Shown here: one piece after another, positions 1 to 64,000 of the stretch
Numbering within the stretch: the stretch's first letter is position 1
Layout: every line of letters starts with the position of its first letter
NCBI RefSeq assembly: GCF_009730915.1
Contig: NC_052472.1
Coordinates: 1,178,001 to 1,242,000, forward strand
Direction: 5' to 3'
DNA from: Dioscorea cayenensis subsp. rotundata
Taxonomy: Eukaryota > Streptophyta > Magnoliopsida > Dioscoreales > Dioscoreaceae
Length of the DNA: 64,000 nt
Notes under the pieces: generated by a model
What the model was told of the DNA's origin: nothing
Database searches by the model: none
Seen by the model: the letters and a program-made list of their open reading frames with translations, nothing else
Translations under genes and position numbers: made by a program

Positions 1-977
1 GTCAAGACTGATGGATCTAAATGTGGAGTGAAATTATATTGTTCTGATTTACCACAAAAGCGTTCTCCAGAGAAAAAGATAAGTGGATCTGCATACTATT
101 TTTGTCCGACTGAAGATGAAGATGTTTGTCCAACATGTCTTGAAGGTACACCATAATAAATTCTTTTTCATTCTTTATCTTAACAAGAGTCTTCTTTTTA
201 TGAGAAATTTTAGTATTTAAAAAGTAGATATAATGACAGGGAGAAAAATGTGGAAGTGCAATTTTGATCATGAAATATAACTTTATGTTTACTTTAGTCC
301 TTGAACTTAAAACATGTTCATGTTTGTCCTTTGACTTAGAAGAAGCTTAAACTATGAACCATGAGCTGTTTAAGTCCTTGAACTATTTTTTAATATTCAT
401 GTTGGTCTCTCAACTCAAAACATGTTTGTGTAATCATGTTTGTCAGTTAACTAAGAAGATAGTTTTTGATCCTTGCACCAAGACGATGTTTTTCATTCCC
501 AAAATAAACTTTTGGCTATAACTCAATACATCACAAAAGAAATTGTTTGCTGAATGACTTCTTGATACTTCTAAATTAGTGATACATGCCGAATCAAGCA
601 AAAAATACAGAGATTGTGAACTGAATGATAAATGATAATTCTTAGTTTTTGAACTCAATTTTCATGTCATGCAAGGATTACATCAAATATTCAATCACAT
701 GATCATCGATTTTGCAGAATATACTCTTGAAAACCCGAAGATAACACTGCAATGTTCCCATGATTACCATCTAAGTTGCATATATGAATGGATGGAGAGA
801 AGTGAAGCTTGCCCAGTCTGCGGAAAGGTAATTAATTTTTCTCAACTATCACCATAATCAAACTTTTACCTTAATCTGTAAAACTCTGTTATCTGTTTTC
901 TTTTACCATATTACTGTTATTAATCTGACATTCTTACCTACTAATTTTTTTAGATAATGATGTTCGTGGAAACGTAA
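1..977 (+). CDS. RING-H2 E3 ubiquitin ligase, 3' part (copy 1)
   Basis: This is the C-terminal part of a small RING-H2 ligase of the Arabidopsis At3g02290 type; its 5' exons lie left of the window. Exons are 1-145, 718-827 and 954-977 (stop TAA 975-977), with introns 146-717 and 828-953 that all obey GT-AG and join in frame. The exon 1-145 product ends DEDVCPTCLE. The next exon supplies CSHDYHLSC and EACPVC, which completes a C3H2C3 zinc-binding set, and the last exon encodes only IMMFVET. Such RING domains recruit an E2 and transfer ubiquitin; the substrate cannot be read from sequence. The second copy (49718-52229) is complete and nearly identical, differing here by L for P in the EYT(L/P)EN stretch. 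Family assignment is strong; function beyond E3 activity is unknown. Confidence 0.9.
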
Positions 978-2431
978 TGATCGATCTCAATCTCAGCATC
1001 GAAATGTTAATATTGTGAAGAATTCCAGACTGATATGTTGCTTGGTGTAAATCTTTCTTTTGACTTTGTACATAAGCTTCATTTTCAATGGTTCAGTGGT
1101 TATATTTATTTATTTATTTTTGGTGTGAGGAAAGTTAAATTGTTTATTTGATTCATAATTTGGTCAAATTCACTCTGTATATATAAATACAGTAACAAAA
1201 ATTTGGTGAAATTTGTAGTGTTTCTTGAGAATTTACTAATAGAGCTTCTACCATATGTTTGGTTACCCTGTTTCCTGTTTCCTTTTTTTAGTATTTTAAT
1301 TTTTTTTCATTTAATATTTCTTTTTTTATTTAGTTAATTATATTTATTCTTGGAATAAGCATGGTTTATATTTTTAATTTTTGAATTTTACTTTATTTTT
1401 AGCAAATGATTTGTTTTTGGACAGAAAATGAAAACAGAAAACAGGGAACAATGAAATTAAATTTGAACCCCCTACAAATTATTTTATATTAAAAATAATT
1501 GTATTTTAGATTTATGGTTAATTTTTAAGTATGATATTAAAATTATGGATGAAGGTGTACTTAATACTATAATTATTTTATTTAATGGACAGTATTTATT
1601 TATATTTTTTAAAACATATGGATTGAAAAAAAATTAGAAAGAATAATACAATGAAATTTTGATTTTTTTCCCCCTTTTTTTTAAAAAATTAACATTCTGA
1701 AACTCATTATTTGTAAAGTTTGAGTTAAAATTAGAAACAAACCCAACAACTTTTTTCTCAAGAAACAAATAAAAAATAATGCTAAATTAAACTTAAATTC
1801 AAGTATATTTTTGATGTCATATATATAAGCCCAAAAATTTATAATTATAAACTATAACCCTTAAAAAGAACATTAGTAACTTTTTCAATCAACAAATTTG
1901 AGTATTTAATTCCAAACAAAATTAAGAACCAGAAAGTTTCTCATGAAATAAAGAAAATAATTAACAAATATATTACTTAATCTATTTTTAAAACAAAATA
2001 ATGGCGATAGTTAGTTGTTGAGTGAAGCATCTATTTTTCTTTTCATTTTTTTTCACGCATACACATTAATCTTCAACTATGTTTTGAAAAGTCGAACACT
2101 CGAGTGTGACCTTTTATATGGGAATTAATTATATTACTATTCGGCTATTGTAGTGATGGTGTCTATATATCATTATTTTATATCTTTTGTCTATAATTAA
2201 AATATCAATTATCCTCTTTTTGTCACAACTTTTATGTATAACCATGTCTATAACTCATATAATCAACCATTTAAAAACAAGTTGCTAAGAAACAAAGTTA
2301 AGGAACACATGAAAATTAAGCACAAGTACAACAACAAACAAAAGTGTTTAGATATATATAACTAGAATGCAAACATACACTAAACTTGATCTGCCATGTC
2401 TTAATTGATAACTTAATTCTTTTGCTCAAAG
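978..2431. other. AT-rich spacer between RING and YABBY genes
   Basis: No coding signal is seen. It holds the 3' untranslated regions of the two converging genes and one candidate MITE (1262-1449). The rest is AT-rich sequence without recognisable structure. Confidence 0.7.
1262..1449. mobile_element. Candidate short TIR element (MITE), copy 1
   Basis: The left end reads GTTACCCTGTTTCCTGTTTC. The right end, read on the other strand, begins GTTCCCTGTTTTCTGTTTTC, giving about 20 bp of imperfect terminal inverted repeat around 188 bp of AT-rich, non-coding sequence. No clear target-site duplication is visible, so the superfamily is not assigned. The same element is at 52520-52711 in the other block. 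Confidence 0.45.
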
Positions 2432-3491
2432 TTACTTCAATGCATTCAAGCTCTCTATGATGAAACCATTAGCACTCTCCTGAAAAACACACACCAAATT
2501 AACTATCATCTTGAACATCATCATAACATAACATGTATTTCACAAGAAGAGTTAATTAATAATTTTACTGGGTCTTTCTTTTACTGAAGATGAAGCAGCA
2601 GTCGAAGTTTCGGGGATCGCGATTTCTTGCCCACTGATCAAAATACATTGAAAAAAACATTAGTGAAGACACTAGTGATAGTTTGAGTACTATATATAGT
2701 TCAATGTTTTATATATGAAGTGCATGCATATCTTACATTTTTCGCCGCCATGCTAAATGCTTCTCTATGAGGAATGTTGGGCTTTTCGGCTTTTATTCTC
2801 TGAATTTCCTCTCTACAAATTAAAATTTTCATCATCTATTCATATATTTAGATCAATAATGTTAGAACAATAATACTGTTTATGATCAACGTGAATCACG
2901 ATCCAACACAATGATAATCGAACGTCCATGATATCTACGTAACGTTCATAGAGATATATAAATTCTATATATATATATATATATATTACTTCATAAAACG
3001 GTTGTAGGCAGATGGAAGTCTGTGTTTCTTCTCTGGAGCTGAAATTAAGAAATGTAGAATCAAAGAAAGAAGATGTATTGAAGAAAAAGACGATGAAATG
3101 ATATCGAAGGAGGTATACGTTTAACAACAAATGGTGCAGATGGAGTTGAAGGATCAGTGGAAGTGGAAGAAGAAGACTGAGGTAATTGGTTGCTGCTCTT
3201 CCTGCAGTCACTGCATGTACCCTAATATGATTCATGATAAACAGATTAATTAATTAATTATTATGATGAAAAAAATTAATTAATTATAAAAAGAATTTTA
3301 TTGTACCTGAAAAGTGATGTGAGGATGATCAGAAGAAGAAGAAGAAGAGGATAGAGAATGGAGTAATGATCTGGGACTGAGGAAGGAGAGATGGTTGCAG
3401 TGGCCACACTTGACAGTGACTGTGTCCATGAGTCTCTTGCATGGAACTCCAACCTGTAATAATGCAAATAAGTTCTTAATTAGTGGGGATG

Positions 3492-3557
<66 letters not shown>

Positions 3558-3695
3558 ATGATCCGAGAGTGTTGAGGAGGATGTAGTATGGCTGATGGAC
3601 AGAGGGAGGGATATATAGAGAGAAAGATTAGTTATCATGAGGCAGTATGTGCAACGAACGGCATAGATGCTCAGTGGGAGTCTCACTAATTCCAT
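2432..3695 (-). CDS. DL: YABBY transcription factor, DROOPING LEAF/CRABS CLAW type (copy 1, with sequence lesions)
   Basis: Seven minus-strand exons: about 3637-3695, 3307-3453, 3119-3221, 2990-3038, 2737-2812, about 2572-2633 and 2432-2479. The C2C2 zinc finger spans exons 1-2 (CTYC and KCGHC). The HMG-like YABBY domain spans exons 3-6 (VVKPPEKKHR, LPSAYNRFM, EEIQRIKAEK, REAFSMAAKN). The order and wording match rice DL closely, including a CSDCRK stretch like rice CTDCRR. DL/CRC proteins are nuclear DNA-binding regulators of carpel identity, nectary and, in monocots, leaf midrib. Here exon 1 loses about 17 bases including its splice donor, and exon 6 reads WARNRDPR where the family has WAKCDPR and also loses its donor. 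Exons 2-5 and 7 are clean. Copy 2 is intact exactly where this one is broken, which favours sequence error over decay. Confidence 0.88.
3494..3553. repeat. (GA)n microsatellite in YABBY intron 1
   Basis: About 30 uninterrupted GA units lie between exons 1 and 2 of the YABBY gene. In copy 2 the tract (54789-54846) is interrupted by GCGAC. On the gene's strand it is a (TC)n tract, a common feature of plant 5' gene regions. Confidence 0.9.
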
Positions 3696-3721
3696 CAAAA
3701 GTAAATTATAAGAAGAAGATG

Positions 3722-4065
3722 AGTGTGTGTGTGTGTGTGTGTGTGTTTTGAAGAGACAAGAGAAGAAGAAGAAGAAGAAGAAAGATTTTTAGAAGTATAA
3801 GAAGGAGAAGAAAAAGTGATAGAGAGTGAGAGAGAGAGAGAGATTTGTAGAAGAAGAAGGAGAAGAGATAAAAAGATTGAATTATAGAGAATAGGATGAA
3901 GATAAGAAGAAATGGTTCTTAAAAAAGGAGGAGAAGAAAAAAGAGAGATGGATTTATAGAAGAAGAAGAAGAAGAAGAAGAAGAAGATGATGATGATATA
4001 TAACAGATGAATTATGGAAGAAGAAGAAGTAGAAGAAGGAGAGCTAGAGAATGGTAGATCTTAAT

Positions 4066-4096
<31 letters not shown>

Positions 4097-4112
4097 AAGA
4101 AGAAGAAGAAGA
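3722..4112. repeat. Purine-rich upstream region with (GT)n and (GAA)n tracts
   Basis: Directly upstream of the YABBY start codon are (GT)n at 3722-3746 and several (GAA)n tracts (about 3762-3781, 3958-3987, 4069-4111). In copy 2 the last tract is a GAA/GAAA mixture (55380-55453). It probably forms the 5' leader and core promoter of the YABBY gene, where pyrimidine-rich transcripts are common. No clear TATA box was identified. Confidence 0.7.
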
Positions 4113-5853
4113 GAGATGGTAAGGGTCTCTTGAGGAGAGGATTGAAGAGAAGGAAAAGATAGGGTTTTGAAGAGGGAGAGATTGAGAGATGGGTATGATA
4201 AGAAGGGTTGGTTTTCCATTCTTGGAAATAATGCCTGCGTGGTCTACCTTGGAAGTCTTTTAGTGTACAGTTGAGTTGAAAATAATTGATATATATATAT
4301 ATATATATAATTCATAATATATAGATTCTTTCTTTGTGAGTTAAATCTCAAATTAAAGCCAAAAGGAGGCCAGTGATGGTGGTGGTGAGATGTTCTATGA
4401 ATTTTCATGTAATTGAGAGTTTCTTTTTACCCTTCTGTTTTCTTCCTTTTGTTTTGGAGTTTCAAATTTATATTGCTAGTAACTTTTATCAATCTTTCAT
4501 CTTTTCATCATTTTTCTGATAAAAAGTTGGTTTTTTTCCTTTTGTTTTCTTGTATCAATCATTTCCCTTTCATTCTTGTATCATGATTACTTTTGTTTTC
4601 TTTTAGATTATTTTTTATTTATATTTTGTAAAAACAGTGTTTTTATTGGTTTGAATAAATTTTACAATAATATTCATAATTTTACAAATGAAAAACTTGT
4701 TTTTGGACCTAAAATTAAAATTTTTTTTACCTAAATGAGCACAACATATGTGTAAACTCATGAATCCATGTGGTAAATAGATACTTTGGTGATTGGATTT
4801 GGATATATATATATATATATATATATATACTATAAGCATTATATGATTTTTTTATAATATTCATGAATAAACAATCATCTACTTTATCAGAAAGATCAAA
4901 GGAAATTTTGTATAAAATGTGAACTTATAAAAAGAATAAAAAAAGTTATGAAGAAAATGAAAAACAAATCTTTGTGGCTTGTGAGCAATAATAGCTCTTA
5001 TATAAACTCAATCATCAATGAACTAATTGGCACATAATTCCAAGACCAAGGCACTTCATATCAACAATTATAAATGAATTATCTAAAAAGTTACATGATA
5101 ATTCCAAATGAAAAGATGAGCAATATATACAACATTTTTCACTAAAAAGCAAGAATCATCATTCACAACCAAAGGCCCCCCTTTTCTATTCTCTTTGTCA
5201 CAATTGTGGATATAGTGTGAGATACACTTGTATATTAATCAAAGGATATCCTAATATTTCTAACTATTAATTATATTAAAAAAGGATTAAGATTTTACAA
5301 CATTATAGTTAAGAAGTGAAAAAATCTAAACACTAAACTCTTCTTAAACATTCATATTGTTAATTACAAATAATTCTAAACACTATATTTTTCTTCTACA
5401 ATGTTTAATCTAATTATATAACAGTGAACCAAGTACATAAAAGTGTATTTGGAAAAAGAGAAAAATAACAATATTCCAAGACGTGTATGTATATATGTAT
5501 AACTGTAGCATGAGACGATGATATCTCAGAAATGCTAAGAAAATTAGGCATCGATCTAGATTATGTATGGTAATAAAATGATGGTCAATTTGTTTAAAAT
5601 TAATGAAGGGCAAGTGGTAACTCTTTTTCTCAATCTCCTTGTTTTTCTTTAGTATTTCTTTATAATTAGCCATTGCGTCACCGAGCAAAACATCTCTTTC
5701 TTTGATCTTAAGTTTTGTCTAAACATAAGTCTTAAGCCTAATGAAAATTATTCGGTGTTCCATTAGATACTAGTCACTAAGTTAACTTAATTAGCCTTCT
5801 AATCATGCAAAAGAAAATCACAATTCTTTCTCTCTCTCTCTCTCTCTCTCTCT

Positions 5854-5887
<34 letters not shown>

Positions 5888-6105
5888 CAAAGATTAACAA
5901 GATATAATGATAGAAGAGCTTCAAGTAAATTAAAACACGCATAGATTGAGAGAGAGTTTCAAGTAATTAATGTTTACCTCCCTCCATTTGAAGGTAATTT
6001 TTCTATGATTTACAATACCAAATAAATATTGGTACACAACTTTACTGTCCCTCAGTTATTTTCTCCTTAACAATTAATTTGAAAATTCTAATTGATGTAC
6101 ATAAT

Positions 6106-6151
<46 letters not shown>

Positions 6152-6434
6152 CTACCATGTAGTAATATTGGAAGATTAAATAAAAGTGAAAAGGTGATCA
6201 TGTACAAACTTTCTCTCTCTCTCTGTCTCTTTGATTGTCTGCCTCTCTGACAAATAAGGACAACAAGAAATGAAAGGAAGGGATCAAAGGTAGGCATGAA
6301 TGAAAAGAAAGTAGTAGGTTCTGGTCCTACAGTTAGAGGTCCATTGACACACAGAGAAAGAGACAGTGATAGCGACACTACTGCCTGCCTACACTAGTAA
6401 CACTAGTCACTATATTATTCCCGTTTTCAGTATT

Positions 6435-6492
6435 TGGCGGGAAGGCCATGTAGGCGCCCACACTCTTACCATCTTTGTATAACTTCCCGCCA
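6435..6492. promoter_or_regulatory. Paired E2F-like sites in inverted orientation (copy 1)
   Basis: TGGCGGGAAG at 6435-6444 is matched exactly by its reverse complement CTTCCCGCCA at 6483-6492, with 38 bases between. Each arm with its preceding T-rich flank fits the plant E2F/DP consensus (TTTSSCGC type). They sit at the head of a CT-rich stretch (6490-6580) that looks like a promoter or 5' leader, but no coding exon follows. The same arrangement is present in copy 2. Function is inferred from the motif only. Confidence 0.4.
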
Positions 6493-8410
6493 TTGCCGCC
6501 CTCTTGTCCCTTCTCCTCATCCTCCTCTTCTTTTCACCTTCATCACCTTAATTCTTCACCTTTTCTCTCTCTCTTTATATATATATATATATTATATATA
6601 TATTTATATATTTAGATTGTAAAATATGATGAAACATAGTTCCTTTTGATTGAACTCTCTTTGTTTGTCTCCTTAACCACTTCAAGGCCACAATAATCTC
6701 ATCCCTTGTCCCCCTATCTCCCTCTCTGGTTTTTTTCTCTTTCCTTTGCCTTTGCCTCTTTTCACTTCTCCTTCTCCTTCTCCTTCTCTTTCTAATTAAA
6801 ATCATCAACAATATATATTCATATATACACAAATTAACTTACCTAGTACTATATATATAATGAGAGAGATGAGCTAGGGTTATACCTTCCATCTCAACAT
6901 CATCAGATATATTCAGCTACATATATATATATATATACTTGCATTCATATATGCATACATGCATGTACATATTTATATATACACACAGAGAGAGTGAATG
7001 AGGTGATATACACACATATATATATATATATATACATGCATGCATGACATATTTATATAGATATCTTTATGTATAGAGAGAGTGAGTGAGATCAAAGCAT
7101 GCATCGATGTAAATATATGTGCATGTATATTTATATCTGGATTTGATTTCTCTCGGTTGAAAACAATAAAAAAATGTCAATAAATAGATAAATAAAAATT
7201 CTCCTTATAAATATTATGGAATATATGTATGTATGTATATATATATATATGTAGGTTATCATCTTCACATTCAAAGGATGATAACTCTTGCTTTTCTTTG
7301 CCAAGTGAGAAGTTGAGAAATCAATTTCTCTTTCACAATATTGGTTGAAATGAGTGACTTATCCACCTTATTTTAATAATATAATTTGAGTAATTTATTT
7401 TAATCATTATCAGTTTGTTTTGATTTATCATCGTAAAATTTTTGTAACTTTTCTTATCGCATGGCTGGGACATGGTAGAATTCGCATTTAGCTTCTTAGA
7501 ATTTTTAAAATATATTACTTATTATAAAAGTTATGACCACTTAATTTTTATATTTATTTCAGATTCACTCATTCGCTAACATAATGTAATTCTTTAAAAA
7601 TTGAATTAATCGATGTTATATATAGGACTAAACCACTGAATCACTAATTAATGATTTCTAAACATTCCGATATCAATATATATAGTGTTAGCACCAGACC
7701 TACAAGTATTAATTACCTCATTCCAAGATTAAAAGCAGTTAAGCTCAATAACTAATTTAGATTGACTTAGTTAAATGATGTCAATTATCAAATGCTAGAA
7801 ATTATAGATACTCAACAAAAATATCCACTAATTAATTCTTTATTTTCAATGCTTGTACATTCTACAATATAAATTAGTTCCATTTCAACTTCATGGAATC
7901 AAAAGTATTTTCACATTATATCTACAATCACATCCAACCAAACATTGCCTTTGTATGATTAAACATAATTTCCTTAAACAAATAATTTCTATAATAAAAT
8001 TAATTATGTGGATGAAAAGACATTTATGAATATTGTGAACCTTAGAAGAAATTAATTGCTGTGATATATATAGAGTAGTTTGTAGGATGGTCCTGATTAA
8101 TTAAATCTTCTCATGCGCATGTTTATGAATCTTTTATAGTGGGCAAATATGAACGGTGCAGCCTTGATTGACTTCACATGCATCTCATTGATGTGAATGT
8201 ACTGTGTTGTTTGATCCAAGTTGAGTAAGGCTCAAATAAAAAGGAGTTCCATAGAGACTTCTTTTTTAGGCAGGTTAACATTATTTTTTCTTGGTTTCTC
8301 ATTTGAAACCAGTCAAACTGATTTGAGCCTTCACTGATCTATCTATAAAGTTCACCATTTTCACTTTCAATATTTAATAATAATAATAAATAATAATAAT
8401 AATAATAATC

Positions 8411-8628
8411 ATAATAATAATTTCAATGGGATCATTTGGAGTCATATATATTATGAAATTCGTTTTATTTGGAGTGCCAATTTATTTATCTAATAATTTA
8501 TTATTTATTACTAATAATAAAAATAATAATTTCAATGGGATCATTTGGAGTCATATATATTATGAAATTCGTTTTATTTGTGGTGACAATTTGTTTATCT
8601 GATCATTTATTATTTATTTTACATAAAA
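8411..8628. repeat. Two-unit tandem repeat, period 109 bp (copy 1)
   Basis: The stretch starting TTTCAATGGGATCATTTGGA at 8421 recurs at 8530, and both units end in a TTATTTATT tract. The units differ by a few substitutions. An (AAT)n tract (8376-8420) lies just before it. The same pair is present at about 59744-59960. Confidence 0.85.
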
Positions 8629-11600
8629 AGGTACTAAGAATTCTAAGTATTTTCTTTTAATGAATTTTTACAACCGTATCAAGTTAAAAAATTGTAGAAT
8701 TTTAGTTAATGCGAACATAAGATAAGCAGCTGATTGTGTTAAAAAATCTAAACATGAATCGACCATTGCTTATTTATTTCGATATTATTTTATTATTTGT
8801 GATTTGCAATGTTTGACTTTGAATAATATAAAGTGAAACAATCATAACTCAATCTTTTACTGAGTCGACTATAGTTCTGAATTGACCAATTTGATAGAGC
8901 CAAAACAAAAGATAATTGTTATGAAGAATGTAGGTTCAATTGAACAAAGGTGAGATTTAATAATTTTATCATTATTGAGATTAAAAGTGGCTTAGCTTGG
9001 CTAATTATATGTCTTAATAAATATGGTTAAGTTACAAACCCTCAATTTTCAAGTTGGACAAGAATTATATAAATTATATTAATTGTACAAATATATATTA
9101 AAAAATGGATAATTATAATGAGGTTGATAATGTATATATATGTTTATGTTTTTTAAAATAAACTCAACAAGTGAAAGCATTCCTCTATATAAAAATAATT
9201 TCAATGGAAAGCATTGCAAATTTTTATTAATTAAAATATTCAAATGCTACAAAGTTTATATAGGTTTGAATTTCATTGATCTCTCAAGTTTTAGGGAAGA
9301 TCTTATTATTGTCTAAAAAAAAATTTCCAATTATTTTTTTCTGCTTCCTTCTAATTAATTGATAATTATTATTTCAATATAATCAATTGTCACAAATAAA
9401 TTTAAAAAAAAGTTAACATCAACTACTTGAATGTAAGAATTCACTTCATTAAGGCATTGGAGACAAAACTCTTCACCTCTACCAACCATATATAAGTTAA
9501 TATGAAAAATAGAAAAATAGATAAAAATCATGTATGGTTGGATCATGGTGGAAGTTGAAGTAGTGGAACTGTGGAAGTAAATGAGAGAATTAATTGAATG
9601 TCAAAAGGGTTTGAAAATGAAATGAGAAATGGAATATACATGAGAGTTGATGAGCAACTTAGAAATTTGTGCATTGAGGTATGGGCAACATTTACAAGAT
9701 GGATGACAAGTTGTGATAAGATGGGTCACTACTCACATGATCATAAATTTTTGGAGAGAAAGATAAGATGTGACTAGTGAGATATGAGGGATGAGCACAC
9801 TTAAACATGTGAATTTAGAGAAGGATGCCTTTAAATTTAGAAAACTTAATTATTAAGAAAATAAAATGAAAAATAAAGCTGTTATTATAATTTTTTATTT
9901 TCCATGTGAAGAAAACCAAACTTTATTAGTCAAATTTAAGTGAACCAAAAACTTATTTAATTGAGCTTGGCCGGGTTGATCTAAGTTTGAGCTTGAGTGG
10001 GTCTGCTATAGGTGGATCTGAGCCCAATTGAATGAGAATTTTTTTTTAAATATAATTTTCAATTAAGATTAAATTACAAGATTATTAAAGATTTTTTTAT
10101 TAGCTAGGTATTAACTTTGGATTTAGGTTAATTAGATTAGTTTGAGCTAATAACCAAACACTGGAAAAGAGTGAGATCTATTGATGAGATTAGTTTGGAC
10201 TCATAACCATACACTTGAAAACCAACCCATTTTAAGTTCGACTATAAAGGTTTTGGCGCCTATATTTCTCATACCCATATGTTCGGTATTAAATTTAATA
10301 ATGTGTATTAAATGCTATTTACTCTTTCATAAAAATCTTCTCTAATGAAGACATAGAGACATCTGTATTTTGATTTTTTTTTTTTTTTACAAAGTGGGTA
10401 AATTACTTTGGGTTAGAGGCTCGGTATTAGTAGGATAAAGTATGTTCTTTGATATTTGTTTGGGCGACTGCATGATCTAAGAACTAGCACACATAGGTAT
10501 AAAGTTAATTTTTCAATGCTTGGTCAAATTAAAGGGGCTACATACCCAGACACAATTAATTTTTCTACATGCATTATACGTGCTCTCTCATAGCGGAGGC
10601 ACATAATTAATTCCTCATACGTGCTTCTGGGGATCAATCTTGAGCCTCCTCCCACACATTAGGAACCCTTCCACTCGATGGAGAGATCTTTGGTCTCCTA
10701 AACAAAATTTCATCATAAGAATAATAAAAATACAGAGAAAAAGACTTGCCAACAAGGTGATGCGCATCTTGTGTTTTTAAGAATAAGAACAACTCTTATG
10801 TTATAATATAAAATAAAATAGTGAAAATATAAGATAAACTACTCTATTGTAAGAAAGGTGAAAGTTATTTCATATTAATCCACACCAAAGTGAGATGGGG
10901 ATATATATATACTTAACCATTGGTTTAGACAATGAAGATGTGATCAAGAGCAATGATGACCGGCGCTGTTGACAACCTTTAGTCTTTTCTTAGTCCAGTA
11001 CTTGTTAGAAAAAACGTCTCATAGATGTCATCAAGCCCTAAATAACAAGGATGAATGCATTTTTAACATTTAACTGACTCAACCGAATAAGATTATTGCT
11101 AAAGTTAATTATATAATTATTTTTCAGATGTTAATTAAAACACTTTGTCAAGAACAAGGCAAGGCATGAACTCAAAAAAACTTATATAATAAAATGAGAT
11201 TAATATAACTTTATTGATATAGGAAAATAATACACCAAATAGCTATATATATAATATATCATTGCTTAAAACATTAAATAATCAACACATAGTGCTTTGC
11301 TTATTTTATAGCCAAAGTTTTGCATGTAAATATCTTAGTTAGGTCGCAACAAGTAATCTCATATAATTCTCCTTTTACTAGAGTAAAAGACCCTATAAAA
11401 CTTTACTATTCTTTGAAATTGGTTTCAATTAGAATTTCAAATATATAATATTATCTTTTGTCTTTTTTTTATTTAAAGATATAAATCATTATATTATTAT
11501 TACTCATTAATTATACCTATTTTTTTTCACCCATTTCTTGGTTTTTTATTATTGAGTCTTGTAATGAGTTCTCTTGTAGAACTACATTGGTTTTTCTAAG

Positions 11601-12007
11601 TAAATAAGATGTAAAAAAATATAAGATACACTTAAAGATAAAAATTAGAGATTTTAAATAATAGATATAATAAATTAATTATAAATTAAACATAAGATAA
11701 TAATACAAGAAAAAAAAACTAAATTATAAAATATATGGGCCCAAAAATAGATAATTAGTATTTAAAATCATATATATTATTTTTTGTATGATTTAAAATA
11801 TATAGTAAGAAATAAACCAAGATTCACCCTCTTTGCACTTGATTTGAAAATTTTAGCCCAATGTAATTGGGCTTGGGCTAAGATCTTGGGCCCAATTTGT
11901 TTGAGCCCATGAGGAACATTGCTCATCTTCACTAAAACCTTCACAAACCGACGCAGAGCTTTTGGCAATCGCCATTGATCCACAGATCAAGCTCTGGAGT
12001 TCTTCCG

Positions 12008-15000: not shown

Positions 15001-15168
15001 GCCGTCGGAGCTGTTAGCAAAGCACAAGCTAACAACATTGCGAGGTTTCTTCCAAAACCCGAAAAAAATTGGGGGCCTAAGATCAGGGCAGGAAGGCGGA
15101 TTATCGCTACGAAGCATGCTTCGATCTTGGGCTGCAAAAACATCGTTACCGATGATACGGGTTCATGA
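12008..15168 (+). CDS. TRM1: tRNA (guanine-26-N2) dimethyltransferase TRM1 (copy 1)
   Basis: This enzyme uses S-adenosylmethionine to form N2,N2-dimethylguanosine at position 26 of tRNAs. Twelve exons: 12008-12202, 12769-12912, 13021-13108, 13226-13347, 13437-13576, 13657-13729, 13813-13901, 13974-14079, 14149-14363, 14448-14641, 14725-14802 and 14986-15168, about 540 residues. Landmarks are [10 protein letters not shown] and [10 protein letters not shown] near the start, the SAM-binding [13 protein letters not shown] and ALDSDKASVDA, the [10 protein letters not shown] catalytic motif, paired cysteines (CVGC, CGDC) of the C-terminal zinc-type region, and [10 protein letters not shown] near the end. 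The first 30 residues (from [10 protein letters not shown]) are rich in R/K/S and lack acidic residues, so they could be an organelle transit peptide. Two defects: exon 10 breaks frame at a C run (14512-14515), and the exon 9/10 junction keeps frame only if one G is missing at 14364. Both look like homopolymer undercalls. Confidence 0.93.
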
Positions 15169-15622: not shown

Positions 15623-15698
<76 letters not shown>

Positions 15699-16590: not shown

Positions 16591-16591
16591 C

Positions 16592-17280: not shown

Positions 17281-17289
17281 GAGAGAGTT

Positions 17290-20370: not shown

Positions 20371-20375
20371 TTTTT

Positions 20376-48537: not shown

Positions 48538-48575
<38 letters not shown>

Positions 48576-49130
48576 AAGAGAGAGAGGATGCGTCTTTTAC
48601 GTACATCCTCAGATTTAAAATCTATACAAGTTGGTTATCAGTTGTTGGATTGTAATCCAACAGTTGATACTCTTCAGCTAAATTGTAATACTGTGCTTAT
48701 AAACAGAACCAATCAACTTGTTGATCTTTCTGCCTCTCTCTTTAATTTACATTGTACACTTCCTAATTTGCACTGTACCCAACTGCGGACTTTCTACATT
48801 TCGTCATATATATATATATATATACCAAAATCTAACAAATCTTTATCAATTGAATCAATCAATTTTTTTTTAAAAAAAATTGGGTAGTATATATGATCCA
48901 GTATAATCTCTGGTCATATTTAAAATTTTCTTAAATGAATAAAAAAAATTATTATAAATTTACAAATTAACTATTTGTTTTTAATATAATTCAGTTATTT
49001 TTCTGGGTTCATATGCAAAACTCACCTAATAAAGATATTAAAAAAATACAATTTTGAACTTTTTAGGGGTATATATGAAAAACAACCTTCTAATAGGAGT
49101 TCTATTTCCTGTCAGACTAGAACAAAGGGT
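47343..49130. other. Spacer upstream of the second RING gene
   Basis: AT-rich, with (TA)n at about 48541-48570. A slightly more complex patch at 48580-48800 contains short inverted words (GAGGATGCG and ACATCCTC) but no gene or element that I can define. Confidence 0.55.
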
Positions 49131-49139
49131 TTTGCGGGA

Positions 49140-49717
49140 TTTATCTCCGCGCTCTTTTTCATTGCTCTTTTTTGGGCGAAAAATCCGAAGAATTTCTTGC
49201 AATCCAGGTTTGATCTCAATTCCTATCGATTATTGACTTGTTTGATCTCTAAAAGTTGTCTCCTTTTTCTTTTTTCAATTGCCTTTGATGCTCTATTTGC
49301 CATCCAAGACTCTAGAGAGGTTTTGATTTAATTTTGGTTTTTGTTGCTTTTTTTTTCGGATTTGATGTGGTTTTTGCATTTTTTTTATTGGTTCTTTTGT
49401 TTATTGGCGTGTAATTTGTGGAAAGATGGGTTTTTTCATATGAATTTGAGATCTTGTTATCTTTTTCCTTTTTGGATTTTGATTGGTATTTGAGTTTGAA
49501 TTTTGACCCTAATTTTGGCTCAAAATTCAAGTAATGGGATCTCGGTATTGATTTTTTTAGGTTTAGAGTATGATGCTTTGGGTTATGGAAATCAGGGTGT
49601 GTTTACAGTGTTGCTGTTCTGAATTTTCTTAGGTTGAACTAGTGAGTATTTGGTGTAGCCTTTCTCTCATTGAAGACAAAGGCATATACTTCTCACTAAC
49701 ATTTAAAGGCTTGGAGC
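49140..49717 (+). promoter_or_regulatory. Likely 5' leader (with intron) of the second RING gene
   Basis: A GC-richer stretch ending AATCCAG at 49207 is followed by GTTTGATC, a plausible splice donor, and a T-rich tract leads to an acceptor (TTTTTAG near 49560 or TTCTTAG near 49632). An in-frame TAA at 49697-49699 precedes the start codon, supporting translation start at 49718. Transcript ends cannot be fixed by eye. Confidence 0.4.
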
Positions 49718-52229: not shown

Positions 52230-53697
52230 TGATCGATCTCAATCTCAGCATCGAAATGTTAATATTGTGAAGAATTCCAGACTGATATGTTGCTTGGTGT
52301 AAATCTTTCTTTTGACTTTGTACATAAGCTTCATTTTCAATGGTTCAGTGGTTATTTTTTTTATTTATTTATTTATTTTTGGTGTGAGGAAAGTTAAATT
52401 GTTTATTTGAGTCATAATTTGGTCAAATTCACTCTGTATATATAAATACAGTAACAAAAATTTGGTGAAATTTGTAGTGTTTCTTGAGAATTTACTAATA
52501 GAGCTTCTACCATATGTTTGGTTACCCTGTTTCCTGTTTCCTTTTTTTAGTATTTTAATTTTTTTTCATTTAATATTTCTTTTTTTATTTAGTTAATTAT
52601 ATTTATTCTTGGAATACGCATGGTTTATATTTTTAATTTTTGAATTTTACTTTATTTTTAGCAAATGATTTGTTTTTGGACAGAAAATGAAAACAGAAAA
52701 ACAGGGAACAATGAAATTAAATTTGAACCCCTACAAATTATTTTTTATATTAAAAATAATTGTATTTTTAGATTTTATGGTTAATTTTTAAGTATGATAT
52801 TAAAAATTATGGATGAAGGTGTACTTAATACTATAATTATTTTATTTAATGGACAGTATTTATTTATATTTTTTAAAACATATGGATTGAAAAAAAAATT
52901 AGAAAGAATAATACAATGAAATTTTGATTTTTTCCCCCTTTTTTTTAAAAAATTAACATTCTGAAACTCATTATTTGTAAAGTTTGAGTTAAAATTAGAA
53001 ACAAACCCAACAACTTTTTTCTCAAGAAACAAATAAAAAAGTAATGCTAAATTAAACTTAAATTCAAGTATATTTTGATGTTTTTTCATATATAAGCCCA
53101 AAAAAATTTATAATTATAAACTATAACCCTTAAAAGAACATTAGTAACTTTTTCAATCAACAAATTTGAGTATTTAATTCCAAACAAAATTAATAACCAG
53201 AAAGTTTCTCATGAAATAAAGAAAATAATTAACAAATATATTACTTAATCTATTTTTAAAACAAAATAATGGCCATAGTTAGTTGTTGAGTGAAGCATCT
53301 ATTTTTCTTTTCATTTTTTTTCACGCATACACATTAATCTTCAACTATGTTTTGAAAAGTCGAACACTCGAGTGCGACCTTTTATATGGGAATTAATTAT
53401 ACTACTATTCGCCTATTGTAGTGATGGTGTCTATATATCATTATTTTATATCTTTTGTCTATAATTAAAATATCAATTATCGTCTTTTTGTCACAACTTT
53501 TATGTATAACCATGTCTATAACTCATAATCAACCATTTAAAAACAAGTTGCTAAGAAACAAAGCTAAGGAACACATGAAAATTAAGCACAAGTACAACAT
53601 CAAACAAAAGTGTTTAGATATATATAACTAGAATGCAAACATACACTAAACTTGATCTGCCATGTCTTAATTGATAACTTAATTCTTTTGCTCAAAG
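52230..53697. other. Spacer between RING and YABBY genes, copy 2
   Basis: Counterpart of 978-2431, including the MITE candidate at 52520-52711. No gene is seen. Confidence 0.7.
52520..52711. mobile_element. Candidate short TIR element (MITE), copy 2
   Basis: Same inverted ends (CCCTGTTTCCTGTTT and, opposite, CCCTGTTTTTCTGTTTTC) as the element at 1262-1449, so it was present before the two blocks diverged. Confidence 0.45.
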
Positions 53698-54239
53698 TTA
53701 CTTCAATGCATTCAAGCTCTCTATGATGAAACCATTAGCACTCTCCTGAAAAACACACACCAAATTAACTATCATCTTGAACATCATCATAAATACAACA
53801 TGTATTTCTACAAGAAGAGTTAATTAATAATTTTACCGGTCTTTCTTTTACTGAAGATGAAGCAGCAGTCGAAGCTCGGGGATCGCATTTTGCCCACTGA
53901 TCAAAATACATTGAAAAAAACATTAGTGAAGACACTAGTGATACTGTGATAGTTTGAGTACTATATATAGTTCAATGTTTTATATATGAAGTGCATGCAT
54001 ATCTTACATTTTTCGCCGCCATGCTAAATGCTTCTCTATGAGGAATGTTGGGCTTTTCGGCTTTTATTCTCTGAATTTCCTCTCTACAAATTAAAATTTT
54101 CATCATCTATTCATATATTAAGATCAATAATGTTAGAAACAATAATCATCATATCGATGTCGCCGGTTGAATCGTGCATCCAACGGTCGATAATTGACGT
54201 CATGAATTTTATCATTTAGAGCGATATAAACATAGATAG

Positions 54240-54276
<37 letters not shown>

Positions 54277-54810
54277 CATATCTACTAAAACAGTTTGTAG
54301 AGCAGATGAAGTCTGTGTTTCTTCTCTGGAGCTGAAATTAAGAAATGTAGAATCAAAGAAAGAAGATGTATTGAAGAAAAAGACGATGAAATGATATCGA
54401 AGGAGGTATACGTTTAACAACAAATGGTGCAGATGGAGTTGAAGGATCAGTGGAAGTGGAAGAAGAAGACTGAGGTAATTGGTTGCTGCTCTTCCTGCAG
54501 TAGCTGCATGTACCACTATGATTGCATGATAAACAGATTTAATTAGGTAATTGTATGATGAAAAATTAATTAATTATAAAAAGAATTTTATTGTACCTGA
54601 AAAGTGATGTGAGGATGATCAGAAGAAGAAGAAGAAGAGGATAGAGAATGGAGTAATGATCTGGGACTGAGGAAGGAGAGATGGTTGCAGTGGCCACACT
54701 TGACAGTGACTGTGTCCATGAGTCTCTTGCATGGAACTCCAACCTGTAATATGCAAAATACAGGTTTTCTTAATTGAGTAGAGGATGCAAGAGAGAGAGA
54801 GAGAGAGAGC

Positions 54811-54850
<40 letters not shown>

Positions 54851-54999
54851 ATGATCTGAGAGTGTTGAGGAGGATGTGTAGTATGGTTGATGGATAGAGG
54901 GAGGGATATATAGAGAGAAGAGATTATTACCGCGAGGACAGTGTTGCAGTATGTGCAACGAACGTAGCATAGATGCTCAGTGGAGTTCACTAATTCCAT
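53698..54999 (-). CDS. DL: YABBY transcription factor, DROOPING LEAF/CRABS CLAW type (copy 2, with sequence lesions)
   Basis: Exons on the minus strand: 54931-54999, 54597-54743, 54412-54514, about 54283-54331, 54008-54083, 53837-53896 and 53698-53745; about 183 residues when exon 4 is taken at its copy-1 length, near rice DL (194). Exon 1 is clean here: MELVNSTEHLCYVRCTYC, with C15, C18, C39 and C42 of the zinc finger. Exon 6 is clean: WAKCDPRASTAASSSVKERP, followed by ESANGFIIESLNALK and stop. Damage is elsewhere: an extra T after the exon 3 acceptor AG (54515), CSYCRK for CSDCRK, and a garbled exon 4 lacking the clean LPSAYNRFMK text and donor found in copy 1. Neither copy alone is intact; together they define a normal DL gene. 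Confidence 0.88.
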
Positions 55000-55453
55000 C
55001 AAAAGTAAATTATAAGAAGAAGATGAGTGTGTGTGTGTGTGTGTGTGTGTTTTGAAGAGACAAGAGAAGAAGAAGAAGAAGAAGAAAGAAGAAAGATTTT
55101 TAGAAGTATAAGAAGGAGAAAGAAAAAGTGATAGAGGTGAAGAGGAGAGAGAATTTGTACAAGAAGAAGGAGAAGAGATAAAAGATTGAATTATAGAGAA
55201 TAGGATGAAGATAAGAAGAAATGGTTCTTAAAAAAGGAGGAGAAGAAAAAAGAGAGATGGATTTATAGAAGAAGAAGAAGAAGAAGAAGAAGAAGATGAT
55301 GAGTGATATATAACAGATGAATTATGGAAGAAAGAAAGAAGTGAAGAAGGAGAGCTAGAGAATGAGTAGATCTTAATTAAGAAGAAGAAAGAAGAAAGAA
55401 GAAGAAGAAAGAAGAAAGAAGAAAGAAAGAAGAAAGAAAGAAAGAAAGAAGAA
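54789..55453. repeat. (GA)n, (GT)n and (GAA)n tracts of YABBY copy 2
   Basis: Counterparts of 3494-4112: interrupted (GA)n 54789-54846, (GT)n 55026-55050, and GAA/GAAA mixtures at 55380-55453 where copy 1 has pure GAA. Confidence 0.85.
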
Positions 55454-57449
55454 GAGAGATGGTAAGGGTCTCTCTTGAGAAAGGATTGAAGAAGGAAAAG
55501 ATAGGAGTTTTGTGAAGAGGGAGAGAGTGCAGAGATGGGTATGATAAGAAGGGTTGGTTTTTCCATTCTTGGAAAATAATGCTATGCGTGGTCTACGTGG
55601 AAGTCTTTAGTGTACGGTTGAGTTGAAAATAGTGATATATATATATATATATATATATATAACATATATCTAAATTCATAGATATACTTAGTGCTACTGT
55701 GAGTTAAATCTCAAATCAAAGCCAAAGGAGGCCAGTGATGTGGTGGTGGTGAGACATGTTCTATGAATTTTTCATGTGATTGGGAAGTTTCTTTTTACCC
55801 TTCTGTTTTCTTTGCTTTTTGTTTTGGAGTTTCAAATCATATTGCTATTAACTTTTATCTAAATACTTTCATCTTTTCATCATTTTTCACCGATAAAAGG
55901 ATTGGTTTTTCCTTTGTTTTCTTGTAACTTTCAATCTCGTTTCCTTTCATTCTGTATCATGATTACTTTTGTTTCCTTTTAGATTATTTTATTTATATTT
56001 TGTAAAAACAGTGTTTTTTATTGGTTTGAATAAATTTTACAATAATATTCATAATTTTACAAATGAAAAACTTGTTTTTGGACCTAAAATTAAATTTTTT
56101 TTTTACCTAAATGAGCACAACATATGTGTAAACTCATGAATCCATGTGGTAAATAGATACTTTGGTGATTGGATTTGGATATATATATACTATAAGCATT
56201 ATATGATTTTTTTATAATATTCATGAATAAACAATCATCTAGTTTATCAGAAAGATCAAAGGAAATTTTGTATAAAATGTGAACTTATAAAAAGAATAAA
56301 AAAAGTTATGAAGAAAATGAAAAACAAATCTTGTGGCTTGTGAGCAATAATAGTCCATATAAAACTCAATCATCAATGAACTAATTGGCACATACTCCAA
56401 GACCAAGGCACTTCATATCAACAATTATAAATGAATTATCTAAAAGTTACATGATAATTCCAAATGAAAAGATGAGCAATATATACAACATTTTTCACTA
56501 AAAGCAAGAATCATCATTCACAACCAAAGGCCCCCCTTTTTTTTTTTATTCTCTTGTCACAATTGTGGATATAGTGTATATCACTGTATATTAATCAAAG
56601 GATATCCTAATATTTCAGCTTATTAATTATATTAAAAAGATTGAGATTTTACCAGCATTATAGTTAAGAAGTGAAAAATCTACAACACTAAGCACCACTG
56701 CTTAAACATCGTATTGCATGGTGACAAATAATTCCTAAACACTACTATATTTTCTTCTACAATGTTTTAATCTAATTATATAACAGTGAACCAAGTACAT
56801 ACAAGTGAAATTATTTTGGAAAAAGACTTTCTTAATATTCAAAGACGCTGTGTATGCCTATATGTATATACTGTGCATGACACTGATGATATCTCAGAAA
56901 TGCTAAGAAAAATTAGCATCATCTAGATTATGTATGGTAATAAAATGATGGTCAATTTGTTGAAATTAATGAAGGGCAAGTGGTAACTCTTCTCTCAATC
57001 TCTGCTTTTCTTTAGTATTTCTTTATAATTAGCTATTGCGTCACCGAGCAAAACATCTCTCTTTGATCTTAAGTTTTAGTCTAAACATAAGTCTTAAGCC
57101 TAATGAAAATTATTCGGTGTTCCATTAGATACTAGTCACTAAGTTAACTTAATTAGCCTTCTAATCATGCAAAAGAAAATCACAATTCTTTCTCTCTCTC
57201 TTTCTCTCTTTCTATATATATATATATATAACAAAGATTAACAAGATATAATGATAGAAGAGCTTCAAGTAAATTAAAACACGCATAGATTGAGAGAGAG
57301 TTTCAAGTAATTAATGTTTACCTCCCTCCATTTGAAGGTAATTTTTCTATGATTTACAATACCAAATAAATATTGGTACACAACTTTACTGTCCCTCAGT
57401 TATTTTCTCCTTAACAATTAATTTGAAAATTCTAATTGATGTACATAAT

Positions 57450-57487
<38 letters not shown>

Positions 57488-57768
57488 CTACCATGTAGTA
57501 ATATTGGAAGATTAAATAAAAGTGAAAAGGTGATCATGTACAAACTTTCTCTCTCTCTGTCTCTTTGATTGTCTGCCTCTCTGACAAATAAGGACAACAA
57601 GAAATGAAAGGAAGGGATCAAAGGTAGGCATGAATGAAAAGAAAGTAGTAGGTTCTGGTCCTACAGTTAGAGGTCCATTGACACACAGAGAAAGAGACAG
57701 TGATAGCGACACTACTGCCTGCCTACACTAGTAACACTAGTCACTATATTATTCCCGTTTTCAGTATT

Positions 57769-57825
57769 TGGCGGGAAGGCCATGTAGGCGCCCACACCTT
57801 ACCATCTTTGTATAACTTCCCGCCA
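57769..57825. promoter_or_regulatory. Paired E2F-like sites in inverted orientation (copy 2)
   Basis: TGGCGGGAAG 57769-57778 and CTTCCCGCCA 57816-57825. Both arms are identical to copy 1; only the loop differs, by one base in length. Confidence 0.4.
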
Positions 57826-59743
57826 TTGCCGCCCTCTTGTCCCTTCCTCATCCTCCTCTTTCTTTCACCTTCATCACCTTAATTCTTCACCTTTTCTCTC
57901 TCTCTTTATATATATATATATATTTATATATATATTTATATTTAGATTGTAAATATGATGAAACATAGTTCCTTTGATTGAACCTCTTTGTTTGTCTCCT
58001 TAACCACTTCAAGCACACAATCTCATCCCTTGTCCCCCTATCTCCCTCTCTGGTTTTTTTCTCTTTCCTTTGCCTTTGCCTCTTTTCACTTCTCCTTCTC
58101 CTTCTCTCTTTCTAATTAAAATCATCAACATATTCATATATACACAAATTAACTTACCTAGTTATATATATAATGAGAGATGAGTCAGGGTTATACTTCC
58201 ATCTCAACATCAGACATCAGCGTTATATATATATATATATATACTTGCATTCATATATGCATACATGCATGTACATATTTATATATACACACAGAGAGAG
58301 TGAATGAGGTGATATACACACATATATATATATATACATGCATGCATGACATATTTATATAGATATCTTTATGTATAGAGAGAGTGTGAGATCAAAAGCA
58401 TGCATCGATGTAAATATATGTGCATGTATATTTATATCTGGATTTGATTTCTCTCAGGTTTGAAAACCTTCATGTCAATAAATAGATAAATAAAAGATTC
58501 TCCTTATAAATATTATGGAATATATGTATGTATGTATATATATATAGGATATATATATATGTAGGTATATCATCTTTCACATTCAAAGGGATGATAACTC
58601 TTGCTCTTTTGCCAAGTGAGAAGTTGAGGAAATCAATTTCTCTTTCACAATATTGGTTGAAATGAGTGGCTTATCCACCTTATTTTAATAATATAATTTG
58701 GAGTAATTTATTTTTAGTCATTATCAGGTTTGTTTTGATTTATCATCGCAAAATTTTTGTTTGTAATCTTTCTTATCGCATGGGCTGGGACATGGTAGAA
58801 TTCTGCATTTAGCTTCTTTTGTAGAATTTTTAAAATATATTACTTATTATAAAAGTTATGACCACTTAATTTTTATATTTATTTCAGATTCACTCATTCG
58901 CTAACATAATGTAATTCTTTAAAAATTGAATTAATCGATGTTATATATAGGACTAAACCACTGAATCACTAATTAATGATTTTCTAAACATTCCGATATC
59001 AATATATGAGTAGTTAGCACCAGACCTACAAGTATTAATCACCCTCATTCCAAGATTAAAAGCAGTTAAGCTCAATAACTAATTTAGATTGACTTAGTTA
59101 AATGATGTCATCATCAAATGCTAGAAAATTATAGATACTCAACAAAAAAATATCCACTAATTAATTCTTTATTTTCAATGCTTGTACATTCTACAATATA
59201 AATTAGTTCCATTTCAACTTCATGGAATCCAAAAGTTATTACATTATATCTACAATCACATCCAACCAAACTATTGCCTTTGTATATTGATTAAACATAA
59301 TTTCCTTAAACAAATAATTTTCTATAATAAAATTAATTATGTGGATGAAAAAGACATTTATGAATATTGAACCTTAGAAGAAATTAATTGCTGTGATATA
59401 TATAGGAGTAGCTCTGTAGGATGGTCCTGATTAATTAAATCTTCTCATGCGCATGTTTATGAATCTTTTATAGTGGGCAAATATGAACGGTGCAGCCTTG
59501 ATTGACTTCACATGCATCTCATTGATGTGAATATACTGTGTTGTTTTGATCCAAGTTGAGTAAAGGCCTCGAAATAAAAAGGAGTTCCATAGAGACTTTT
59601 AGGCAGGTTAACATTATTTTTCTTGTTTCTCATTTTGAAACCAGTCAAACTGATTTGAGCCTCACTGATCTATCTATAAAGTTCACCATTTTCACTTTCA
59701 ATATTTAATAATACTAATAATAATAATAATACGAATAATAACA

Positions 59744-59960
59744 TAATAATAATTTCAATGGGATCATTTGGAGTCATATATATTATGAAATTCGTTTTAT
59801 TTGGAGTGTCAATTTATTTATCTAATAATTTATTATTTATTACTAATAATAAAAATAATAATTTCAATGGGATCATTTTGGATTATATATATTATGAAAT
59901 CTAGTTTTTATTTGTGGTGACAATTTGTTTATCCCGATCATTTATTATTTATATATATAA
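59744..59960. repeat. Two-unit tandem repeat, period about 109 bp (copy 2)
   Basis: Units begin TTTCAATGGGATCATTT near 59754 and 59863. Counterpart of 8411-8628. Confidence 0.8.
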
Positions 59961-62900
59961 AAGTATTAAGAATTCTAAGTATTTTCTTTTAATGAATTTT
60001 TACAACGCGATCAAAGTTAAAAATTAGAAATTTTAGTTAATGTGAACATAAGATAAGCATAATGATTGTGTTAAAAAATTTAAACATGAATCGACCATTG
60101 CTTATTTATTTCGTATTATTTTAAAAAAAATTATTTGTGATTTGCAATGTTTGACTTTGAATAATATAAAGTGAAACAATCATAACTCAATCTTTACTTG
60201 AGTCGACTATAGTTCAGAATTGACCAATTTGATGGAGCCAAAACAAAAGATAGTGTTATGAAGAATGTAGGTTCAATTGAACAAAGGTGAGATTTAATAA
60301 TTTTATCATTATTGAGATTAAAAAGTGGCTTAGCTTGGCTAATTATAGTAGTCTTAATAAATATGGTTAAGTTACAAACCCTCAATTTTCAAGTTGGACA
60401 AGAATTATATAAATTATATTAATTGTACAAATATATATTAAAAAATGGATAATTATAATGAGGTTGGTAATGTATATATATGTTTATGTTTTTTAAAATA
60501 AACTCAACAAGTGAAAGCATTCCTCTATATAAAAATAATTTCAATTGAAAGCATTGCAAATTTTTATTAATTAAAATATTCAAATGCTACAAAGTTTATA
60601 TAGGTTTGAATTTCATTGATCTCTCAAGTTTTAGGGAAGATCTTATTATTGTCTAAAAAAAAATTTCCAATTATTTTTTTCTGCTTCCTTCTAATTAATT
60701 GATAATTATTATTTCAATATAATCAATTGTCACAAATAAATTTAAAAAAAAGTTAACATCAACTACTTAAATGTAAGAATTCACTTCATTAAGGCATTGG
60801 AGACAAAACTCTTCACCTCTACCAACCATATATAAGTTAATATGAAAAATAGAAAAATAGATAAAAATCATGTATGGTTGGATCATGGTGGAAGTTGAAG
60901 TAGTGGAACTGTGGAAGTAAATGAGAGAATTAATTGAATGTCAAAAGGGTTTGAAAATGAAATGAGAAATGGAATATACATGAGAGTTGATGAGCAACTT
61001 AGAAATTTGTGCATTGAGGTATGGGCAACATTTACAAGATGGATGACAAGTTGTGATAAGATGGGTCACTACTCACATGATCATAAATTTTTGGAGAGAA
61101 AGATAAGATGTGACTAGTGAGATATGAGGGATGAGCACACTTAAACATGTGAATTTAGAGAAGGATGCCTTTAAATTTAGAAAACTTAATTATTAAGAAA
61201 ATAAAATGAAAAATAAAGCTGTTATTATAATTTTTTATTTTCCATGTGAAGAAAACCAAACTTTATTAGTCAAATTTAAGTGAACCAAAAACTTATTTAA
61301 TTGAGCTTGGCCGGGTTGATCTAAGTTTGAGCTTGAGTGGGTCTGCTATAGGTGGATCTGAGCCCAATTGAATGAGAATTTTTTTTTAAAATATAATTTT
61401 CAATTAAGATTAAATTACAAGATTATTAAAGGTTTTTTTATTAGCTAGGTATTAACTTTGGATTTAGGTTAATTAGATTAGTTTGAGCTAATAACCAAAC
61501 ACTGGAAAAGAATGAGATCTATTGATGAGATTAGTTTGGACTCATAACCATACACTTGATGAGATCTATATTTCTCATACCCATATGTTCGGTATTAAAT
61601 TTAATAATGTGTATTAAATGCTATTTACTCTTTCATAAAAATCTTCTCTAATGAAGACATAGAGACATCTGTATTTTGATTTTTTTTTTTTTTTTACAAA
61701 GTGGGTAAATTACTTTGGGTTAGAGGCTCGGTATTAGTAGGATAAAGTATGTTCTTTGATATTTGTTTGGGCGACTGCATGATCTAAGAACTAGCACACA
61801 TAGGTATAAAGTTAATTTTTCAATGCTTGGTCAAAGGGGCTACATACCCAGACACAATTAATTTTTCTACATGCATTATACGTGCTCTCTCATAGCGGAG
61901 GCACATAATTAATTCCTCATACGTGCTTCTGGGGATCAATCTTGAGCCTCCTCCCACACATTAGGAACTCTTCCACTCGATGGAGAGATCTTTGGTCTCC
62001 TAAACAAAATTTCATCATAAGAATAATAAAAAATACAGAGAAAAAGACTTGCCAACAAGGTGATGTGCATCTTGTGTTTTTAAGAATAAGAGCAACTCTT
62101 ATGTTATAATATAAAATAAAATAGTGAAAATATAAGATACACTATACTCTATTGTAAGAAAGGTGAAAGTTATTTCATATTAATCCACACCAAAGTGAGA
62201 TGGGGATATATATATATATATATATACTTAACCATTGGTTTAGACAATGAAGATGTGATCAAGAGCAATGATGACCGGCGCTGTTGACAACCTTTAGTCT
62301 TTTCTTAGTCCAGTACTTGTTAGAAAAAACGTCTCATAGATGTCATCAAGCCCTAAATAACAAGGATGAATGCATTTTTAACATTTAACTGACTCAACCG
62401 AATAAGATTATTGCTAAAGTTAATTATATAATTATTTTTCAGATGTTAATTAAAACACTTTGTCAAGAACAAGGCAAGGCATGAACTCAAAAAAACTTAT
62501 ATAATAAAATGAGATTAATATAACTTTATTGATATAAGAAAATAAGACACCAAATAGCTATATATATAATATATCATTGCTTAAAACATTAAATAATCAA
62601 CACATAGTGCTTTGCTTATTTTATAGCCAAAGTTTTGCATGTAAATATCTTAGTTAGGTCGCAACAAGTAATCTCATATAATTCTCCTTTTACTAGAGTA
62701 AAAGACCCTATAAAACTTTACTATTCTTTGAAATTGGTTTCAATTAGAATTTCAAATATATAATATTATCTTTTGTCTTTTTTTTTATTTAAAGATATAA
62801 ATCATTATATTATTATTACTCATTAATTATACCTATTTTTTTTCACCCATTTCTTGGTTTTTTATTATTGAGTCTTGTAATGAGTTCTCTTGTAGAACTA

Positions 62901-63312
62901 CATTGGTTTTTCTAAGTAAATAAGATGTAAAAAAATATAAGATACACTTAAAGATAAAAATTAGAGATTTTAAATAATAGATATAATAAATTAATTATAA
63001 ATTAAACATAAGATAATAATACAAGACTAAATTATAAAAATATATGGGCTCAAAAATAGATAATTAGTATTTAAAATCATATATATTATTTTTTGTATGA
63101 TTTAAAATAGTAAGAAATAAACCAAGATTCACCCTCTTTGCACTTGATTTGAAAATTTTAGCCCAATGTAATTGGGCTTGGGCTAAGATCTTGGGCCCAA
63201 TTTGTTTGAGCCCATGAGGAACATTGCTCATCTTCACTAAAACCTTCACAAACCGACGCAGAGCTTTTGGCAATCGCCATTGATCCACAGATCAAGCTCT
63301 GGAGTTCTTCCG

Positions 63313-64000
63313 ATGCGTTTCATTGTTGGAACAGCCTTCAAATTGCCTCGGAAACCATCAAAATCAAATCTTTCCTTCTTTTCTTCTGCTCAGAACTCTG
63401 AAAGATCCAACCTGGCGTTGGAGATTGAAGGTTGTAGAGTCATCAAGGAAGGGGAAGCTCAGGTCCTCTTGGATGACAGTAATGGCGTTTTCTGCAACAA
63501 GGCTCAGGTCCTTCTTTCTCGTAAAAATCATTCCTTTCTCATAAAAAAATGTGCCCTTTTTCTTGGGGTGTTTTTTTGATGTTTTAATTGGTTGTGTCGT
63601 TGTGTTGCTTAAATGGATTGGCTTGTGTTTGTATAGATTTTCTTTTTAAACTTGTTCTCTGGTTCACTTTTTGATCATTTTAATTTTAAATGTAGCTGTT
63701 TTTGGTGTTCCTATGGTTTACAATTTATTGTTCTGGTGTTTTCATTGAATACCCATTTGTCAAAATTTGATCTTTTTGATTGGCTTTGTTTGCCTACTGT
63801 GATGGTTTTCAGTTGCTGCTCTTGTGAACTTCGTCTCAGTGGAATTACATATTCCTATGTCAAACTAGGTAGAAATTAGATACTTAACTATATTCATTCT
63901 TTTGCTTTATATTCTTAATAATTCTTGAATGTTGAATTGTTAATTAAATAGTACTGATCATTTGGTTTGTTTTGCCACTACTTTGAGTTGCCTCTGAGTA
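63313..64000 (+). CDS. TRM1: TRM1 tRNA dimethyltransferase, 5' part (copy 2, cut by window edge)
   Basis: Exon 1 is 63313-63507, 65 codons from [10 protein letters not shown] to GVFCNKAQ, encoding the same residues as copy 1; intron 1 runs past the window end. The remaining eleven exons lie to the right. The promoter region upstream (63100-63300), including GGGCTTGGGC and GGGCCCAATT words, is also nearly identical to copy 1 (11800-12000). GGGCCCA-type words resemble the site II/GGCCCA elements common upstream of plant housekeeping genes. Confidence 0.9.

Follow-up and report, generated by a model that had tools for sequence, protein, structure and literature searches.

In the account given by Kelley and Salzberg (2010, PMC2864568) upon which we draw, a duplicated contained contig (DCC) was filtered by alignment over >93% of its length, at >95% identity and within 50 kb, and was decided upon by mate-pair consistency. 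The merging of such false duplicates, in the same account, yielded 124,432 SNPs and 22,960 indels for chimpanzee, 188,617 and 16,840 for chicken, and 50,209 and 10,764 for cow, i.e., some 5 to 11 SNPs for every indel. The program purge_dups (Guan et al. 2020, PMC7203741) was written to remove haplotigs and also uses read depth. Ko et al. (2022, PMC9516828), in the part of their paper that bears on this, gave an assembly gap between the copies as a trait of false duplications. The locus described below resembles all three.

The window is the whole stretch of 64,000 bases that was analysed, C2:1178001-1242000, within an assembly of 584,211,761 bases in 2,249 contigs, probably that of a plant to judge by its size, the introns and the Kunitz_legume genes; the window was examined together with 100 kb on either side (264 kb). 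Four N runs, every one exactly 1000 bases, split the 264 kb into five contigs or contig parts, here called W, X, A, B and Y, with W and Y being truncated at the edges of the 264 kb. The layout is as follows.

C2:1097085-1098084, 1168690-1169689, 1217310-1218309 (within the window) and 1277084-1278083: the N runs.
C2:1169690-1217309: contig A, 47,620 bp, with a 1000-N run at either end.
C2:1218310-1277083: contig B, 58,774 bp, the next after contig A.
Window 1..12688, + strand: copy 1 of the repeat, part of contig A (blastn self-match).
Window 12689..39309, + strand: remainder of contig A, doubled in contig B up to C2:1270477, excepting a fill at 34101-36876 that is found in A only.
Window 39310..40309, no strand: gap between contigs A and B, exactly 1000 N.
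Window 40310..42996, + strand: leftmost part of contig B, ahead of the match to A, which starts at C2:1220997.
Window 42997..51242, + strand: part of contig B that matches the bases to the left of the window, where contig A starts (C2:1169690-1178000; assembly comparison).
Window 51243..64000, + strand: copy 2 of the repeat, in contig B (blastn self-match).

The earlier note had described a 12.7-kb block present twice (1-12687 and 51243-64000), with a 1000-N gap between the copies. Both points were borne out, as the longest blastn self-match pairs 1-12688 with 51243-64000 on the same strand, and the N run at 39310-40309 was confirmed to be exactly 1000 bases. In this self-match, 94.3% of the 12,989 alignment columns are identical, gaps are opened 243 times, and the 209 mismatches amount to 1.7% of the 12,457 bases aligned without gaps. 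A MAFFT global alignment of the same copies gave 484 mismatches and 161 indels, a discrepancy that we take to reflect gap scoring and placement, and the blastn alignment was used; how exactly the differences divide into substitutions and indels thus varies with the aligner. Scans of the 64-kb window for Rfam families and tRNAs gave no matches.

The copies had also been said to run off the window, as indeed they do: beyond the left edge another 8,311 bases match, up to the point where contig A starts, and rightward the match reaches C2:1270477. The prediction made for the haplotig reading, that DNA to the left of the window should match 40310-51242, held for 42997-51242 (8,246 of the 10,933 bases), which match C2:1169690-1178000; the other 2,687 bases, 40310-42996, are without a partner because contig A starts there, after a 1000-N gap.

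Extended to the full contigs, positions 1-47620 of contig A align from the first base to the last (window 39309) with positions 2688-52168 of contig B. The alignment falls into three blocks (A 1-33891, 33881-42411 and 45188-47620; identity 95.3, 96.8 and 94.4%), and contig B overhangs the match by 2,687 bp on the left and 6,606 bp on the right. On A, the match stops on either side only where the contig itself ends at a 1000-N gap. Contigs A and B have in common 0.61 of the distinct 25-mers of A and 0.49 of those of B; the other nine pairs among the five contigs of the 264 kb have at most 0.016 in common. The only matches of at least 500 bp within those nine pairs link W to A (82%) and to B (75-77%), and these belong to an older local repeat family. 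A rough estimate of the chance that both match ends would coincide with contig ends was dropped, as the same containment would result from a larger duplication that begins and ends inside gaps.

Contig A falls within the DCC filter: 44,855 of its 47,620 bases are covered (94.2%), and identity with gaps counted, summed over the three blocks, is 95.5% (the third block alone has 94.4%), between contigs that are adjacent. The likeness to a DCC, in the description of Kelley and Salzberg cited above, lies in a shorter contig aligning entirely inside a longer one nearby, both placed in the chromosome and on separate contigs with the N run 39310-40309 between them; the alignment here, unlike that of a DCC as so described, is broken into three blocks owing to two structural differences. 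The pair is also like the haplotig of purge_dups (PMC7203741, as cited), a contained haplotypic duplicate left in the primary assembly, and like the heterotype false duplication of Ko et al. (PMC9516828, as cited), in which two divergent haplotypes lie in one scaffold with a gap between them and genes are falsely doubled. The DCCs were decided by mate pairs, and the duplications of Ko et al. came from vertebrate genomes, with depth, linked reads and k-mers as confirmation, according to these same portions of the two papers, whereas the present pair appears to be from a plant and was assigned from its sequence alone.

Copy number across the assembly was assessed with the best-scoring candidates only, so that all of these counts are lower bounds. 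Window 1-3000 has two long matches among those listed, A itself (whole) and B (query 1-2986, 96%), and the remaining listed matches are all of 132 bases or less; window 36877-39309 (the right end of A) and window 45000-48000 each have two full-length matches among those listed. Separately, window 36877-37516 is a dispersed repeat of ~640 bp, with at least 38 further long matches across the assembly at 78-91% identity.

We consider, with a probability of roughly 0.92, that contig A and C2:1220997-1270477 of contig B are the allelic versions of a single locus, the plant being heterozygous. What the sequence shows is the end-to-end containment, the adjacency, the gaps on both sides, and two copies, with no third among the matches listed, for each of three pieces. 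The earlier note had left the choice between a very recent large duplication and two alleles assembled in series; the lying of contig A wholly inside contig B favours the alleles. The assembler would have retained both alleles because they differ sufficiently, in substitutions, in repeat lengths, by a hAT-like insertion and by one further structural difference. The scaffolder would then have set allele A, the contained and shorter one, next to contig B and facing the same way, with a gap fixed at 1000 N. We infer that the A and B sequences stem from homologous chromosomes, each expected at half normal read depth. The doubled stretch of about 48 thousand bases is most likely an ordinary assembly artefact, i.e., a contained haplotig or false segmental duplication.

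The two structural differences are located as follows.

Window 25570..25577, + strand: empty target site CTTCAAAC, single copy in contig A; the element in contig B is at C2:1254777-1258805.
Window 34101..36876, + strand: dissimilar fill between common flanks, 2,776 bp in A vs 683 bp in B.

At the first site contig B carries an element of 4,013 bp, with the ends CAGGGGCGGCTCAA and, reversed, CAGTGGCGGCTCAA, lying between two copies of CTTCAAAC. The flanks of the element in B, when joined, are identical to the 50 bases of A, and the 8-bp target-site duplication is perfect. A reading frame of the element matches Dimer_Tnp_hAT (PF05699, E 1e-14), and its ends, starting with CAG, and the 8-bp duplication are like those of hAT transposons; a Copia-like element (RVT_2 and rve) surrounds it. 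The hAT-like insertion postdates the parting of the A and B sequences. It fits alleles; duplicates would permit such an insertion too, and read errors would not. With its exact empty site, it would make a ready marker of heterozygosity if A and B are alleles. At the second site the fill in B (C2:1267396-1268078) is without clear similarity to that in A; its first bases are TGTTGGGGAGCCC, and it may belong to a transposable element.

The doubled region includes the following genes.

Window 639..854, + strand: RING-H2 finger exon of a doubled gene (zf-rbx1, E 1.1e-9; zf-RING_2, E 1e-8).
Window 11936..15165, + strand: exons of TRM1, tRNA N2,N2-dimethylguanosine methyltransferase (PF02005).
Window 16592..17316, - strand: Kunitz_legume inhibitor gene 1 (PF00197, E 1.3e-24); frame broken in A, single open frame in B.
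Window 20376..21097, - strand: Kunitz_legume inhibitor gene 2 (PF00197, E 1.6e-40); frame broken in A, single open frame in B.
Window 28609..29229, - strand: Kunitz_legume inhibitor gene 3 (PF00197, E 2.1e-48); open in A and B.
Window 32194..32916, - strand: Kunitz_legume inhibitor gene 4 (PF00197, E 1.6e-27); frame broken in A, single open frame in B.

PF02005 was matched in 4 of the 7 pieces of TRM1 in contig A and in 2 of the 3 pieces in contig B; the first piece in the window (11936-12271), which had no Pfam match, and the last (14977-15165) were assigned by position only. Between A and B the TRM1 region has 11 substitutions and 25 indels, 24 of the latter being of 1 bp, and the frame breaks sit at different places in the two contigs. 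Among the assembly-wide candidates, the PF02005 family was found in both A and B and on C15, and C7 has a single match; the C15 locus (C15:23070052-23071456) is another of the TRM family, with a stop within 2 of its 4 exon matches. Frames of the Kunitz genes are broken in 3 of 4 genes in A and in none of the 4 in B; each gene region has between 2 and 10 substitutions. The breaks in A are probably errors of the consensus, and annotation would turn the genes into pseudogenes.

Over 44,103 aligned bases, contigs A and B differ by 591 substitutions (1.34%; 305 transitions and 286 transversions) and by 591 indels, of which 368 are of 1 bp and 203 adjoin a short homopolymer. Short indels along with substitutions had been noted before within the window; that observation stands and is refined here, in that the changes are clustered across contig A, with 44% of neighbouring changes at most 10 bp apart vs 24% under uniform placement. 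The substitution rate per kilobase ranges from 0.1% to 5.9%, with a median of 0.95%, in 46 of 48 bins (the two left out have no aligned bases). It exceeds 3% in 5 of the 46, which is high for alleles; these bins are, as judged by eye, partly simple repeats and near older repeats. The equal numbers of indels and substitutions are unlike the merged alleles of Kelley and Salzberg (PMC2864568, in the counts given above). Reading frames are broken in both contigs, and this, along with the equal numbers, suggests consensus error in both. Because indels equal substitutions, part of the difference between A and B is probably consensus error, and is not to be read as heterozygosity.

A true tandem segmental duplication, recent and 48 kb or more in length, with a later gain of the hAT-like element in one copy and a divergence of 1-2%, would account for copies that lie side by side and point the same way, like tandem duplicates, and both the insertion and the frame breaks could postdate it. 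We nevertheless hold it to be very unlikely, as its junction is not in the sequenced DNA: the 2,687 bp ahead of the matching part of B are unlike the end of A, contig X has no match to the extra left end of B, and no match as long as 400 bases links the start of B to its extra right end. Given that X is unlike B, and the start of B unlike its right end, both limits of a duplication must fall inside gaps; likewise, the limits of the match on A are both contig ends, with none within sequenced DNA. A larger real duplication with its limits inside the gaps would, when only the bases are compared, look identical. Mutational decay is expected to yield more substitutions than indels, and the equal numbers found here go against a duplication that has aged in this way. 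Little credence is given to a young ~50-kb duplication bearing TRM1, RING-H2 and four Kunitz genes, of which one copy would be losing its Kunitz frames and the other would have gained a hAT-like transposon. Least probable, and close to negligible, is a homotype duplication, in which a single sequence was assembled twice through sequencing errors: the 591 indels (368 of 1 bp, 203 by a short homopolymer) and the conserved frames broken in both contigs are what it would leave, but the two large structural differences, one having a precise 8-bp target-site duplication and an empty site, are not read errors.

If A and B are two alleles, the assembly misstates the gene content of the locus. Taken at face value there are eight Kunitz inhibitor genes, where the plant probably has four, and two TRM1 genes, where it probably has one; apparent pseudogenes at the locus may be consensus errors. 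Such pairs should be purged before gene-family expansions are counted or the ages of recent duplications are estimated from the assembly.

The sequence around the doubled stretch shows some older similarity. The right end of contig W (C2:1093868-1096791) is 75% similar to the left end of contig B (window 40359-43381), and W is 82% similar to the left end of contig A. We read this as an old local repeat array which the 70-kb contig X splits, and the placement of X may be questionable. Beyond the end of the match to A, contig B (C2:1270478-1277083) has long open frames, presumably those of a LINE (endonuclease and reverse transcriptase), and contig A stops just short of them.
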